In this document: in pieces, positions 48,778 to 53,816 of the stretch
Layout: each line of letters starts with the position of its first letter
Position numbering within the stretch: position 1 is the stretch's first letter
Origin: Candidatus Zixiibacteriota bacterium
GTDB lineage: Bacteria > Zixibacteria > MSB-5A5 > GN15 > PGXB01
NCBI GenBank assembly: GCA_900498245.1
Contig: LS998015.1
Span: 1,988,717-2,045,247 of the forward strand
Length of the DNA stretch: 56,531 bases
Reading direction: 5' to 3'
The notes under the pieces: generated by a model
The model's input: the letters and a program-made list of their open reading frames with translations, nothing else
The model's database searches: none
What the model was told of the DNA's origin: nothing
Program-made: the position numbers and the translations under genes

Positions 48778-48880
48778 ATTACCTCCTCAAATCGCCGGAA
48801 AATAATATCTTCAGGTCAAAAATCAAGAACCTTTTATGGAGATTGCCTGCCACTGCCGGGCCCACCCATCGCTTGGATGC

Positions 48881-48930
48881 CACCCCCAAATTCGGGGCTG
48901 AGGGATTATGGCGGATGGGATTTGGGGGTG
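48881..48930 (+). repeat. palindrome family 4, copy 1
   Basis: An 11-bp stem CACCCCCAAAT / ATTTGGGGGTG encloses a loop containing TTCGGGGCTGAGGGATTATG. A second copy lies at 53691-53740. A shared upstream stretch beginning CACTGCCG (from about 48851) shows that the unit is longer than the hairpin. Confidence 0.85.
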
Positions 48931-48952
48931 AATGTTTTCTGCATGACAATTT

Positions 48953-48990
48953 GTAGGGCGGAACCCCAGACGAAGTCTTGCGGTTCCGCC
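48953..48990 (+). repeat. REP-like palindrome family 1, copy 1, with GTAG foot
   Basis: GTAG (48953-48956) directly followed by a 9-bp perfect stem GGCGGAACC / GGTTCCGCC with an inner AGAC/GTCT. The block of 45 bases around it is identical to the copy at 52994-53031. Confidence 0.88.
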
Positions 48991-49138
48991 ATCCCTTGCG
49001 CGGCACGGCGTGCCGTGCCCTTCTTCGCCTACACCCAAGGGGCGGCAGATATCCTGTCCACCCGAACGCCCAAATCCGGTTTCAATCGGAACATCAAATC
49101 CCGGTCATGATAAACCGGAGAAAACCATAAAAAATACC

Positions 49139-49166
49139 TTGGACATTTTTATAAATGTGCTATAGT
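49139..49166 (+). promoter_or_regulatory. promoter of the cysteine-rich gene pair
   Basis: TTGGAC (49139-49144), a 16-base spacer and TATAGT (49161-49166) with TGC before the -10. The start would be near 49173, 38 bases before the TTG start codon. Similar in form to the glycan operon promoter. Confidence 0.6.
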
Positions 49167-49210
49167 TTAATAAAGAAGACACTAAAAAGATAACAGGTCC
49201 CGGGTCATTC

Positions 49211-49669
49211 TTGAAAAAAGTATTCGCTGTCATTTCGCTTTTTTGCTTGATTGGAGCGATGCTGTATGGCTTTCCCGAGCGTTGCCTGCTTGCACCGCAA
49301 CATTGCATTTCCAAGGTGACCCATGACCTCGACCTCTGCGGCGCGCCCGCGCCGAATCATTTAGCGAAATGCGGCGGCTGCGCGGGCCATCCTGCGGGCG
49401 AATCGGCGGGTTCATGCCGAAAAAAGCCGGGCGGGCTCCCGGCGACAGATTCGCCGCTCAAACCCGATTCCAAATCCGACTGCACCCGCCTGTGCCAGTC
49501 ACTGGTGGCTGACGGTCCGAATCGCATAATATCAAGCAATCACGTCCTGGCCAAATCCGAGATTACATATTTCTTTCCCCTCCGGGAATCTGTTTCTACC
49601 GGAAATTTCGAAAATATTCCTCCCTGGGGGATTAATCCCCGGATTGCTGCGACTGTTTTACGAATTTGA
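49211..49669 (+). CDS. cysteine-rich exported protein, family not recognised
   Basis: A 152-residue protein starting at TTG 49211, with N-terminal MKKVFAVISLFCLIGAMLYG, a signal peptide-like or anchor segment. The middle (about 24-100) holds about nine cysteines, including CGGC and two CxxxC-like spacings. The C-terminal third has none. No ribosome site is obvious, but a good promoter stands 45 bases upstream and a second cysteine-rich exported protein follows 71 bases later. Metal binding or disulfide-rich packing is plausible; nothing more can be said. Confidence 0.55.
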   Translation: MKKVFAVISLFCLIGAMLYGFPERCLLAPQHCISKVTHDLDLCGAPAPNHLAKCGGCAGHPAGESAGSCRKKPGGLPATDSPLKPDSKSDCTRLCQSLVADGPNRIISSNHVLAKSEITYFFPLRESVSTGNFENIPPWGINPRIAATVLRI

Positions 49670-49740
49670 TTGACAGAATAATCCTTTGATTCGCACTTTG
49701 AAAATTCAGCACCACAGAACAAAATACAAAGGAGATTATT

Positions 49741-50040
49741 TTGAAAAGAAATCCGCTTATTATAGCAGTCTTGTTGGCTTTCCTGACGGTCTTTGTTGCC
49801 GGTAGTGCGGTTTTGGCCGATAGCAATTGCTCCAAAGACTGCAAGAATAAGAGTGAGTGTTCCAAAAACTGCAGCCCGACTGACTGCAAGGGCAAGGCGC
49901 AGTGCGCCGATTCCTGCAAGGCCGTATGCAATAATAAAACAGATTGCTCGGCCAGGGCGGAATGCGCCAAGAAGATGCCGGGTGCATGCAACCCGGAGGC
50001 CTGCAAACAGGCCCATTCTAAGGCTACGCCCGACAAATAA
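49741..50040 (+). CDS. small cysteine-rich exported protein, possible metal binder
   Basis: A 99-residue protein. TTG start at 49741 with AGGAG at good spacing; signal peptide about 1-26 (ends AVLA). The mature part has twelve cysteines in about 65 residues, spaced 3-8 apart in repeated [ND]C, [SK]xxC units with many Lys and Asn (for example CSKDCKNKSECSKNC). The pattern recalls metallothionein-like or Cys-repeat peptides, but I do not recognise a family. It shares a promoter with the preceding gene and is followed by a terminator. Confidence 0.7.
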   Translation: MKRNPLIIAVLLAFLTVFVAGSAVLADSNCSKDCKNKSECSKNCSPTDCKGKAQCADSCKAVCNNKTDCSARAECAKKMPGACNPEACKQAHSKATPDK

Positions 50041-50070
50041 TCCGCCTTTTGCAGGCTGAGTTATTTGCTT

Positions 50071-50106
50071 ATAGGAGGATCACCTGTACCGAGGCGGTCC
50101 TCCTAT
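50071..50106 (+). terminator. terminator of the cysteine-rich gene pair
   Basis: A 9-bp stem ATAGGAGGA (50071-50079) / TCCTCCTAT (50098-50106) with an 18-base loop, followed by TTATTTACTT. It lies 30 bases after the stop. Confidence 0.7.
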
Positions 50107-50223
50107 TTATTTACTTCCCTTGCGCGGCCCGGCCACCGTCGGGCCCGTTCATTTCTTATACTGTGCGCGGCAGACATCCTTCCTGCTCGTACGCATTTAT
50201 AGACTTTGCCCATCCCGTGCGCA

Positions 50224-50240
50224 GCAGGTATCCTACCTGC
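50224..50240 (+). repeat. palindrome family 3, copy 1
   Basis: Perfect palindrome GCAGGTATCCTACCTGC, flanked by GTGCGCAG before and CCGAGGGC after. A degenerate relative lies at about 50165-50190. It stands 48 bases from the 3' end of the RAYT gene. Confidence 0.85.
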
Positions 50241-50288
50241 CCGAGGGCCTATATCATATGACCATCTCCTTCATGCTACCCGGACAAA

Positions 50289-50807
50289 TTAAATTAACCA
50301 CCTAAAATCCCGATCAATATCCAAAGGCCCATTCTTCTCACCTGAATAGTCACCCGCGCTCGAATATTTCCAGCCCGTTTGTGATACCGCCAATCCGGCC
50401 TTAACAGGGTTTTGATGTATATAATTTAATTTGATGCGAAATTGCTCCTCGGAAGTGATAATTAAGTCGTCGAATCTTGGTTTCCATAAATTGAATTGGC
50501 CGTGGCACCCGATGCCGCCTTTTTGCATCAGAATATCCTTAATCCTTAACGCGCTTCTGCGCTTAAAACCGTGAACAAACTCCGACAATACGGAAATCTC
50601 CCCAAAACCGAATAGGCCGTGCAAATGAGTCGGCATTAAGACATATCCCACCGCTGAAATTCGGAATTGCTCCAATTCCCGGCGAAGTTGATTCAGGCAG
50701 GCCAGAGCGAATTCCTGATTTGAAAAATATGGGGTCCGGTCCTTGGTGGTTATGGTAATGAATACCAGAGCCGGGCCCGTAATTTTTAGTCTTCTTCGCA
50801 CAACCAT
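50289..50807 (-). CDS. REP-associated tyrosine transposase (RAYT, IS200-like Y1 family)
   Basis: A 172-residue single-domain HUH endonuclease. The HUH motif is His61-Leu-His63 in MPTHLHGLF, and the catalytic tyrosine is Tyr129 in KLNYIHQNPVKAGL, a sequence typical of RAYTs and not of IS200 proper. The length fits the family. The catalytic set looks intact. RAYTs are single-copy domesticated transposases thought to spread REP palindromes. Copies of the same 17-bp palindrome flank it in opposite orientation, and several palindrome families crowd the next 3 kb. Confidence 0.9.
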   Translation of the reverse strand: MVVRRRLKITGPALVFITITTKDRTPYFSNQEFALACLNQLRRELEQFRISAVGYVLMPTHLHGLFGFGEISVLSEFVHGFKRRSALRIKDILMQKGGIGCHGQFNLWKPRFDDLIITSEEQFRIKLNYIHQNPVKAGLAVSQTGWKYSSAGDYSGEKNGPLDIDRDFRWLI

Positions 50808-50876
50808 GGCAAAAAATACCGGATTAGTGTGACAAGGGATGTCAGGGAAAATGAAAGAATATATATTTAGCGAACG

Positions 50877-50895
50877 GGCAGGTAGGATACCTGCC
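50877..50895 (-). repeat. palindrome family 3, inverted copy
   Basis: GCAGGTA/TACCTGC with the family's flanks on the opposite strand (GCGG before, CCCG after on the - strand). It lies 70 bases upstream of the RAYT start and mirrors the copy at 50224. Confidence 0.85.
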
Positions 50896-51006
50896 GCTCA
50901 CAGAATGAATCTTCTTGACTTCATTCCTATTGATATTATCTTAAAATAGATAAAATAATCCTGACCTCTTGCGAGCCAGCCACTTCTGTAAGGCCGGGGG
51001 TATAAA

Positions 51007-52635
51007 ATGAAGGCTTTTGTTATATTTTGGGCATCCTGCCTCATATTGGCGTCTTCCACCTTTTCCGCCACCGTTGTTCATGAAAACATAATGCATGGGC
51101 TGACTTATGGTATCGCGATCGACGCTGAGACATTGACGGTTACGGTTGGGAATAAAACCGCGCCGATTATCAAAGATTATCCCCGCGAACTTGATAGCTC
51201 CGGAAAAGAAGAATGGGATAATGATATGAGGCGTCTCTTGACCGCCGACACTTCCGCCTGGGTTTTACTCTCCTATGACCGCTTTGATGTATATGTGGAT
51301 TCGGCTTATTACGCTCATAATACCCCGGCAATTGACCAATTCTGGGACAAATTTGAACCCAGATATGAGTTAATGGAACAGCAAACCGGTTGGAGCGCCG
51401 AGAAGTGGTATGGCAGAAAATTGCAAATAAATGTTTCTGCTTCTATTGGATGCTATGGGGGATATGCTATGCCAGGAAATGCTGTGATTCATTTTTCTGA
51501 TCCAATATATCAATGTGGCTGGCCTTATTATGAAAATGGACAAGAGTTATATGGAAACCCTGGGGAATTTGGGGATTATTGGCCATATATGGCTTATGCT
51601 CTGCATGAAACAATGCATGCAATAAATCCGTACCCAATTTATGTTAGACTTTGGCTTACAGAGGGTTTTTCAGAATATAATATGTATAATATTTTAACTA
51701 ATTCTGGGGATATTAATCAAGAAACAATGGATACTTATATTTATCAAGGAACTAGTGCTTATAATTGGCTAGGTTATGTTGCAAATGATTATCGTGATAC
51801 AAGCGGGTATAATAGCGAGATTCAACTAAGCAATGGTTATGATATTACTGCATGGATGTTTAGCATGTTAAGAGATAATTATTCCTTGGACTGGAATGAT
51901 TTTTATAAGTGGACAGATAATAATGGAGAGACTTTGGATAAAGCTTATAACGATTTGCCTGGATGGTATTATATAGACATGGCTGTGATTGACTTTTTTG
52001 CAAGATCTTCGAGCATTGGAACATTTGACAATGCAAAGCCTGTTTTTAGATATGATGGGCCAAGCGGGCCTGGATGGGGTGTAAGGCAGTGGAAAGATTT
52101 GAATTGGTATGCTGATTTAAGTGCTTCATTGACAGCATCAACATTTAACCTCAAGCCGGGAGAAACAACCAACTTAATCGCCTCAATTAGTAATTTTGGC
52201 GGCGTATCTCTGATTGGTGTTTCCGTTAGAATTTATAATGGAAGCGATCTGCTGAATGAACAGTTCGTGAATGTCCCGGCGCCCGGTGGCATTCAAGTTA
52301 CTGTCCCTTTCACCGGACAGGAAGGCACTTATAATTTCAGGGTGGCCGTCGATGAAGCGAATCTCAAAGTCGAAACGAATGAAGATAATAATGACGCGGC
52401 TCTTGAGGTCGGCTTCTACCCCACCTGCGGCGATATCAACGGCGACAACAATATCAATATCCTCGATGTCAGTTATCTGATAAATTTCTTGTATAAGAGC
52501 GGCGGTGCGCCTCATTGCAACGCCCCTTATTATTTCTGCGCCGACGCCAATGGAAATCAATCGGTAAACATTCTGGATGTTTCGTACATTATCAACTATT
52601 TATATAAACACGGCCCGGCGCTGAATTGCCGATAG
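51007..52635 (+). CDS. secreted gluzincin-type metalloprotease-like protein with CARDB and doubled dockerin-like tail
   Basis: A 542-residue exported protein. Signal peptide (about 1-21). The catalytic region (about 90-375) has HETMH at 200-204 and a downstream Glu219 in WLTEGFSEY, the HExxH...E layout of gluzincins. A CARDB-like beta-sandwich follows (about 380-470), then two dockerin-like units (474-542) with NILDVSY twice, as in the proteases at 58 and 2104. Codons of roughly residues 138-380 are strikingly A/T-rich, while both ends match the host composition. This suggests that the catalytic part was acquired or is diverging separately. The ribosome site is weak (GGGGG six bases upstream). 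Confidence 0.8.
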   Translation: MKAFVIFWASCLILASSTFSATVVHENIMHGLTYGIAIDAETLTVTVGNKTAPIIKDYPRELDSSGKEEWDNDMRRLLTADTSAWVLLSYDRFDVYVDSAYYAHNTPAIDQFWDKFEPRYELMEQQTGWSAEKWYGRKLQINVSASIGCYGGYAMPGNAVIHFSDPIYQCGWPYYENGQELYGNPGEFGDYWPYMAYALHETMHAINPYPIYVRLWLTEGFSEYNMYNILTNSGDINQETMDTYIYQGTSAYNWLGYVANDYRDTSGYNSEIQLSNGYDITAWMFSMLRDNYSLDWNDFYKWTDNNGETLDKAYNDLPGWYYIDMAVIDFFARSSSIGTFDNAKPVFRYDGPSGPGWGVRQWKDLNWYADLSASLTASTFNLKPGETTNLIASISNFGGVSLIGVSVRIYNGSDLLNEQFVNVPAPGGIQVTVPFTGQEGTYNFRVAVDEANLKVETNEDNNDAALEVGFYPTCGDINGDNNINILDVSYLINFLYKSGGAPHCNAPYYFCADANGNQSVNILDVSYIINYLYKHGPALNCR

Positions 52636-52663
52636 CAGTTCCGCCATCCCCTTCCTGTGCGCG

Positions 52664-52680
52664 CCAGGTATCCTACCTGC
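52664..52680 (+). repeat. palindrome family 3, copy 2
   Basis: CAGGTATCCTACCTG core with the family flanks GTGCGCGC before and CCGAGGGC after, 29 bases after the dockerin protease stop codon. It could serve as the protease gene's 3' hairpin. Confidence 0.8.
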
Positions 52681-52798
52681 CCGAGGGCTTATATTCAAAT
52701 GTTTAGCGGGGTTTTGCCGAAGACCCTTGTCCGAGGTGTGACCCCGCGGTTTTCTGCGTACCGTCGGTCCCGGCTTGCCCCGGAATCCAAATATATTT

Positions 52799-52850
52799 GT
52801 AGGTCGAAATCCCCCGAGATCCGGCTCCTGCCGGACGACGGGGTTTCGAC
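52799..52850 (+). repeat. REP-like palindrome family 2, copy 1, with GTAG foot
   Basis: GTAG (52799-52802) abuts the stem GTCGAAA(T)CCCC / GGGGTTTCGAC (one bulged T), with an inner hairpin TCCGGC / GCCGGA. A second copy lies at 53766-53816. Confidence 0.88.
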
Positions 52851-52993
52851 ATCTTCTTTAGTCTTAGTAAGTCCGAGCCCCTGTGGTTCGGACATTGCCC
52901 CTAACAGGATTTCGAATATTTAGCGAGGTCTTGCCGGGGACTGTGCGCGGCCCGGCCTTTGACGGATACGTCCAATTGTAGCGGCAGCAAGTT

Positions 52994-53031
52994 GTAGGGC
53001 GGAACCCCAGACGAAGTCTTGCGGTTCCGCC
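52994..53031 (+). repeat. REP-like palindrome family 1, copy 2, with GTAG foot
   Basis: GTAG (52994-52997) followed by GGCGGAACC / GGTTCCGCC (52998-53006, 53023-53031). Identical to the copy at 48953. A family 3 palindrome follows directly. Confidence 0.88.
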
Positions 53032-53042
53032 ATCCCGTGCGC

Positions 53043-53061
53043 GGTAGGTATCCTACCTGCC
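53043..53061 (+). repeat. palindrome family 3, copy 3
   Basis: GGTAGGTA-TCC-TACCTGCC, one mismatch in the stem, with the flanks GTGCGC before and CGAGGGCC after. It forms a composite with the family 1 copy 11 bases upstream. Confidence 0.8.
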
Positions 53062-53095
53062 CGAGGGCCCATATTATATAACCATTGCTGTGCGC

Positions 53096-53113
53096 GGCAG
53101 ACTTTAGTCTGCC
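53096..53113 (+). repeat. palindrome family 3 variant
   Basis: Perfect palindrome GGCAGACTTTAGTCTGCC with the same GTGCGC prefix and CCGA suffix as family 3 but a different stem. The stem has changed on both sides together, so pairing is kept. Confidence 0.8.
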
Positions 53114-53591
53114 CGATCGTCTCATGGAATCCGTTCATTCCCTCTCAAAGCATTTTCCACATCACTTTGGTGTCAATCTGCCGCCGGGGAGTATCAGTGA
53201 AGGGATAAATAAATTTATGACGCAATATCACTGCATAAAAAAGAAATCGATTGAGGCTTCATATTTCAAAACTAAGCCGATCATGCAAATTTGTACCTTT
53301 CTCCCAACCATTACGGGTAAGGTCTCTTACCGCAATTTTTCCCGGCGGAATACAGGAAAAAAATTTTGCAGAACAAACCCAAATCCCTGTAACTTTATAT
53401 ATATCAATCAGATATCTGAAATCAACTTGGCTTCGTTTTCCATGGCCCCTTGCGCCCCAACAGGTTACAAGTCCGGAAAAATTGCTTTCAAGGCAAAAGA
53501 GAGCAAAATCCGCGGAGGGGGATATATTATTCCAATCATCTCGAATTTGCGCCTCCACAAGCCCCCCAGGCCCCTTAACGCGTATCGGTGC

Positions 53592-53610
53592 CCCACAGCT
53601 CTGCTGTGGG
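53592..53610 (+). repeat. palindrome family 5, single copy
   Basis: Perfect stem CCCACAGC / GCTGTGGG with a 3-base loop. Only one copy in the window. Confidence 0.65.
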
Positions 53611-53690
53611 TATATTCAATTTTATGTCTTTGCCGAGTATATTCCCGCGCGCGACCCGGCCACTGCCGCTCCCGCCCACCGCTCGGGTGC

Positions 53691-53740
53691 CACCCCCAAA
53701 TTCGGGGCTGAGGGATTATGGTGGCGGTAATTTGGGGGTG
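53691..53740 (+). repeat. palindrome family 4, copy 2
   Basis: Same CACCCCCAAAT / ATTTGGGGGTG stem as 48881-48930, with an identical 31-base left half and a diverged right part of the loop. A family 2 copy follows 25 bases later. Confidence 0.85.
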
Positions 53741-53765
53741 ATTGTTCCTATGCGCGGCAGCATTT

Positions 53766-53816
53766 GTAGGTCGAAATCCCCCAAGTCCGGCGTCAGCCGG
53801 ACGACGGGGTTTCGAC
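53766..53816 (+). repeat. REP-like palindrome family 2, copy 2, with GTAG foot
   Basis: GTAG (53766-53769) abuts the stem starting GTCGAAA at 53770. The inner hairpin is GTCCGGC / GCCGGAC, one pair longer than in copy 1, with a different loop. Confidence 0.88.

Follow-up and report, generated by a model that had tools for sequence, protein, structure and literature searches.

GTAG-footed palindromes and a REP-associated transposase with a different flanking repeat in an intergenic interval of Candidatus Zixiibacteriota

Repetitive extragenic palindromes (REPs) with a GTAG foot have been grouped into a super-family, and the phyla listed for these GTAG repeats do not include Zixibacteria (Di Nocera 2013, PMC3733652). 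The REP-associated tyrosine transposase (RAYT) of E. coli, TnpA-REP, reads GTAG via residues including Q95, E100, H101, R104 and the C-terminal G160-E161 (PMC6006769; PMC8266576). Throughout the literature searched, biochemical tests of RAYTs are described only for a few Proteobacteria, and we found no earlier report of REP/RAYT systems in Zixibacteria. Here, we describe such systems in Candidatus Zixiibacteriota, starting from four GTAG-footed palindromes and one RAYT, termed R9, located between positions 48953 and 53816 of a 56,531-nucleotide stretch of DNA (the window), which comprises positions 1,988,717-2,045,247 of a single-contig genome of 3.51 Mb (GCA_900498245.1, LS998015.1). The sequence evidence indicates that the repeats are real REPs and that the neighbouring RAYT, likewise real, very probably has a different substrate.

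The GTAG-footed palindromes and their genome-wide copies

As reported in an earlier note on this DNA, the four palindromes belong to two families, and in each of them GTAG lies directly against the stem. The two copies of family 1 (48953-48990 and 52994-53031, both on the plus strand) are identical in sequence and consist of GTAG followed by GGCGGAACC-CCAGACGAAGTCTTGC-GGTTCCGCC. The copies of family 2 (52799-52850 and 53766-53816, likewise on the plus strand) carry GTAG followed by GTCGAAATCCCC..GGGGTTTCGAC, with a stem that is interrupted by a bulge and capped by an inner hairpin. Folded as single-stranded DNA, family 1 reaches -12.4 kcal/mol (z -4.8) and family 2 reaches -18.8 kcal/mol (z -5.2 and -6.0), values that were matched by none of 200 shuffles for either family.

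The association of GTAG with stems was then measured in 456 kb, comprising the window and 20 stretches of 20 kb each, 8 of them chosen around RAYT genes and 12 not, by determining for each tetranucleotide the rate at which it directly precedes a perfect stem of at least 8 bp. GTAG ranked first of 256, with 22.9 per 1000 occurrences compared to a mean of 1.09 over all tetranucleotides, which corresponds to a 21-fold excess over the mean. GCGC (4.5 per 1000) and CTCG (3.9 per 1000) were raised as well; these represent the two sides of the other palindrome type, the one around R9 (see below). The stems behind GTAG in this sample differ widely (GTCGGAACC, GTCGAAACC, GTCAGGCCC, GTCAGGATC, GGCGGAACC and GGGGCGGAC), and GTAG, rather than the stem, is therefore the constant part.

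Both families are also dispersed. The head of family 2, GTAGGTCGAAATCCCC, was found at 31 places in the genome with at most 2 mismatches, compared to 1 for the reversed control, and the head of family 1, GTAGGGCGGAACCCC, at 33 places, 11 of them exact, compared to 6 for its control; the two lists of places share GTAGGTCGGAACCCC variants. With 18 of the 31 family 2-like places on the lagging strand, as inferred from the GC-skew switch near 1.9 Mb, we claim no replication-strand bias. Families 1 and 2 hence combine the unpaired GTAG at the 5′ foot with the dispersed copies that characterise the GTAG REP super-family, and the earlier note was right in seeing here GTAG REPs of a little-studied lineage that possesses RAYTs; they occur genome-wide.

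Intergenic palindromes with strong stems might instead terminate transcription or act as RNA elements that have nothing to do with RAYTs. However, none of the four was among the terminator-like sites, and an identity as intrinsic terminators was rejected on this basis, while the Rfam scan was empty. Moreover, the unpaired GTAG foot remains constant across differing stems, and inverted GTAG pairs flank RAYTs, which renders this explanation scarcely credible.

The flanking repeats of R9 and of the other RAYTs

The RAYT gene that the earlier note had placed at 50289-50807 is intact. It is encoded on the minus strand, and its product of 172 amino acids scores 89.5 bits against the NCBIfam profile NF047646 (REP_Tyr_transpos; cut-off 80) and also matches Y1_Tnp. 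The motifs THLH (HuH) and YIHQNP (catalytic tyrosine) agree with the profile in marking R9 as a REP-associated tyrosine transposase, and its closest relatives in a named collection are from Candidatus Zixiibacteriota.

R9 is directly bracketed by an inverted pair of palindromes that had escaped the earlier note, in which a GTG-N3 foot precedes GGCAGGTATCCTACCTGCC. One lies downstream of the gene (50215-50243, plus strand; CCGTGCGCAGCAGGTATCCTACCTGCCCG) and the other upstream (50875-50903, minus strand; CTGTGAGCGGCAGGTATCCTACCTGCCCG); both were recognised by sequence and fold. They are 88% identical, and the left and right flanks of R9 are the best mutual match among all clade-B loci (the RAYT clade that contains R9, see below). 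Two extra copies follow on the plus strand at 52655-52683 (CTGTGCGCGCCAGGTATCCTACCTGCCCG) and at 53035-53063 (CCGTGCGCGGTAGGTATCCTACCTGCCCG), the latter 4 nucleotides after the second copy of family 1. Allowing at most 1 mismatch, the R9 stem occurs at 8 places in the genome; 4 of these are no more than 2.8 kb away from R9 while the others are scattered, a clustering that fits local spread around the gene. R9 therefore lies between two inverted copies of a palindrome that is dispersed in the genome, as expected of a RAYT gene. A further palindrome at 53090-53115 (plus strand; GGCAGACTTTAGTCTGCC), with the foot GTGCGC, carries the stem found in the flanks of R3, another RAYT of this genome (see below), with the TGCGCGGCAG site at genome position 2041807. 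GTAG and GTGCGC palindromes are also dense together, as in the window, at genome positions 1,330,881-1,332,405 and 3,111,387-3,121,083.

The genome encodes 11 Y1_Tnp proteins, spread from 448 kb to 3.22 Mb. Inspection of the flanks of all 11 genes revealed that most lie between an inverted palindrome pair, and that at least five kinds of palindrome are involved: GTAG, GTG-N3 with GGCAG, GGGTGCCACCCCC, GGGTAACCCACCCC and GTCAGGTCC-like. Palindromes with the GTG-N3 foot and the stem GGCAG..CTGCC bracket R9, R1, R3, R5 and R6, with inner stems that differ by gene: AGGTATCCTACCT (R9), AGACGTCC(T/C)CGTCT (R1), AGACTTTAGTCT (R3), AGATGTCCACATCT (R5) and AGACGCTTCGTCT (R6). Flanks of other types were found at R7 (GGGTGCCACCCCCAAA), R8 (GTCAGGTCC-like) and R11 (GGGTAACCCACCCC). 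GTAG palindromes flank R2 and R10, the two genes of this genome that fall into the other clade, clade A. R2 (3,120,517-3,121,017; 1.08 Mb from the window) has GTAG palindromes on both sides whose stem is that of family 2, including the bulge and the inner hairpin, and R10 has palindromes of GTAG followed by GTCGGGTCTCG on each side. Both proteins contain YIHYNP and the GTAG-contact residues, and together with their GTAG flanking repeats they correspond to subclass 2.2. R4 (L011:9836-10351, genome 3220835-3221350) is a divergent Y1 protein with YMLLNS replacing Y...NP; it is accompanied by GTAGGTCAAACATTCTTGTTTGACC downstream and by an imperfect GTAG-footed hairpin upstream on the other strand.

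The same division is seen in related genomes. We searched 132 Zixibacteria genomes for both clades, which are each monophyletic (SH-aLRT, a likelihood-based branch test, 98 and 96), with R9 inside clade B (96), and inspected the DNA on either side of the best loci, 31 for clade A and 30 for clade B. A GTAG hairpin adjoins 30 of the 31 clade-A genes, 24 of them on both sides, compared to 2 of the 30 clade-B genes (Fisher p=6e-14), and a hairpin of GTG-N3 followed by GGCA adjoins none of the clade-A genes compared to 25 clade-B genes (p=2e-12), p-values that overstate the number of independent events since the loci are related. In clade B, no gene is bracketed by GTAG on the left and the right, and 28 genes lack it altogether. 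An inverted pair of left and right flanks scoring above the shuffle maximum was present at 28/31 clade-A and 28/30 clade-B loci; R5 was missed in this count, as its start codon had been placed too far upstream, and with the start at L012:9789 both R5 palindromes are found. In addition, the left and right palindromes of one gene match each other better than palindromes swapped between genes (permutation p=5e-5 in each clade). All 49 clade-B elements measured have T at -5 and G at -4 relative to the GGC stem, and 44 have G at -6, a tally that shows the fixed position of the TG, because elements without TG in the 8-nucleotide foot had been excluded beforehand.

The proteins differ accordingly in the residues that read GTAG. 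All 26 clade-A proteins retain W94, Q95, D100, H101 and R104, and 25 of them end in GE, whereas in clade B H101 occurs in 0/29 and R104 in 2/29 proteins and the GE ending in none. R9 itself has no residues matching the GTAG-contact residues H101 and R104 and lacks the C-terminal GE. Compared with the solved E. coli TnpA-REP (PDB 4er8), R2 gave E=2.7e-22 and the clade-B profile E=2.7e-9.

The earlier note had proposed that R9 acts on the GTAG repeats surrounding it. It is indeed a REP-type transposase, and it shares an interval of 5 kb with the four GTAG copies among which it lies, which would suit an enzyme that recognises GTAG and mobilises both families. This pairing is nevertheless unsupported, because R9 belongs to clade B, is flanked directly by the GTG-N3 palindromes instead of GTAG and has lost the GTAG-contact residues along with its clade; R9 does not show the features of a GTAG-reading RAYT of group 2 or subclass 2.2. 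Given in addition that the GTAG pairs of this genome belong to R2 and R10, we regard it as very improbable that R9 is their enzyme.

Stem classes and repeat counts across Zixibacteria

Within clade A, the stem follows the protein tree. In a tree of 26 proteins and R4, the five stem classes require 4 changes, the minimum possible, and the six genes with GTCGGGT form one clade (support 99/99). When R4 is included as a sixth group, 5 changes are required, compared to a mean of 11.4 after shuffling, and none of 200 shuffles was as low. The family 1 stem (GGCGGAACC, paired with GGCAGAACC across the gene) flanks a clade-A RAYT in the genome G036, and GGCAGAACC flanks another one in G094 (locus L185).

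This agreement between stem class and clade-A tree weakens the suggestion of a single enzyme for the two families, and some room for it is left. In a rival view, the RAYTs would read the foot loosely, so that R2, R10 and perhaps R9 act on all GTAG stems, with stem families that differ by drift only. Several GTAG stem families of this genome have no RAYT of the same stem, and common descent of a gene and its flanks could yield part of the stem pattern without specificity. On the other hand, the minimum number of changes on the tree and the stem common to both flanks of a gene argue against this view, and we consider loose reading unlikely.

Repeat counts tie GTAG abundance to clade A weakly. 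They were compared in 83 genomes of at least 90% completeness, unfiltered for contamination, using a crude GTAG pattern that covers only stems starting with GTC. All 10 genomes in which this pattern is in excess by at least 20, a cut-off picked after the counts were known, carry clade A, one of them as a partial gene (E=2e-33); the association has a Fisher p=0.015, or 0.001 if the partial gene is counted. The similarly crude GGCAG pattern is more clearly associated with clade B (p=0.0009), and it also rises with clade A (p=0.007), so that repeat richness or genome quality in general confounds the counts. According to the earlier note, repeats as abundant in genomes without the RAYT would have spoken against a RAYT/REP system; for clade A no such abundance was found among the GTAG-rich genomes, and the counts are modest evidence.

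Taken together, these results make it highly probable that the GTAG palindromes are REPs of clade-A, E. coli-like RAYTs and that R9 is a clade-B enzyme most likely acting on the inverted palindromes around it, with GTG-N3 before GGCAGG..CCTGCC. The interval would then be an intergenic island in which repeats of several RAYT/REP systems have accumulated, the four GTAG palindromes being non-autonomous elements and R2 at 3.12 Mb the likely partner of family 2. By analogy with the enzymes of E. coli, S. maltophilia and Marinomonas, from which hairpin recognition, cleavage, strand transfer and spread in trans are inferred, each RAYT may bind the single-stranded hairpin formed by its cognate REP, reading the foot together with a portion of the stem, cleave next to the foot via its HuH/Tyr centre and rejoin the ends, whereby REPs would spread in trans. 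Several observations weigh against this arrangement. R9 does sit physically among GTAG copies; GTAG abundance tracks clade A weakly in a rank test that includes all genomes (p=0.068); and the family 1 stem was found beside no RAYT of this genome in the flanks of all 11 Y1_Tnp genes, so that family 1 was either left by a lost gene or is served by R2 or R10.

The interval and its margins contain further features. Two 91-nucleotide copies of a third repeat (48846-48936 and 53656-53746; GTGCCACCCCCAAATTCGGGGCTGAGGGATTATGG..TTTGGGGGTG) are 86% identical, and their ends resemble the GGGTGCCACCCCCAAA..TTTGGGGGTG palindromes flanking R7 at 3.078 Mb; in the stretch tested, 48886-48933, the fold was no better than that of shuffles. 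The gene at 51007-52635 (plus strand) encodes a protein of 542 amino acids whose C-terminal end carries CARDB and dockerin type I domains, and the middle of the gene (about 51400-52100) looks more A+T-rich than its ends. A cysteine-rich protein of 99 amino acids with a repeated C-K-x spacing (DCKNKSECSKNC..) is encoded at 49741-50040 (plus strand) and gave no Pfam or NCBIfam matches.

Relation to described REP/RAYT systems

The phylum offers dozens of natural enzyme/repeat pairs from which to learn what RAYTs read, and in the present genome alone five RAYTs of one clade differ in their stems. Tentatively, Zixibacteria may contain a large natural RAYT/REP series in which enzyme and repeat changed in step, at first in the foot (GTAG or GTG-N3) and later in the stem sequence. 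A code from residue to hairpin base could then be read from sequence, and clade B would form a RAYT group of its own, marked by a spaced GTGN foot. The locus also calls for caution, as proximity of a RAYT to a repeat does not show that the two are paired; a repeat that directly flanks the gene on both sides is better evidence.

Clade B is closest to subclass 2.6 of Quentin, or group 5 of Bertels, with its 'atypical' repeats. The likeness comprises YIH[NQ]NP, a GTAG-reading region that is not conserved and repeats outside the canonical form with copies elsewhere in the genome. In contrast, the HuH motif of clade B is mostly SHLH or THLH instead of NH[LIV]H, the spacing from H to Y is 61-70 compared to a median of 82, and the stems are strong rather than weak, with a GTG foot at a fixed distance. 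For R9, the tyrosine motif and the loss of the reading region fit this group, whereas the HuH letter and the spacing do not. The comparison was made by the described motifs, and the foot of clade-B relatives is often GTGG, which overlaps GT[AG]G; for subclass 2.6, non-GT[AG]G repeats are expected.

Clade A resembles E. coli TnpA-REP and its REPtron (Bertels group 2, Quentin subclass 2.2; PDB 4er8) in YIHYNP, WQxR[FY]WDHxxR and the C-terminal GE, as well as in the GTAG foot, the inverted flanking REPs and, for some repeats, long stems that contain a bulge and an inner hairpin. It differs in its phylum, in D for E at position 100 and in the stem sequences; many clade-A repeats of relatives have plain unbroken stems, and the copy numbers of families 1 and 2 are modest compared to the hundreds of REPs in E. 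coli. With an unpaired GTAG at one end, stems within or near the described range and an intergenic, dispersed distribution in several families per genome, families 1 and 2 match the GTAG super-family (PMC3733652). The REP/RAYT systems described here are thus of a familiar type, with several specificities side by side, and come from a phylum for which we found none in the literature searched.

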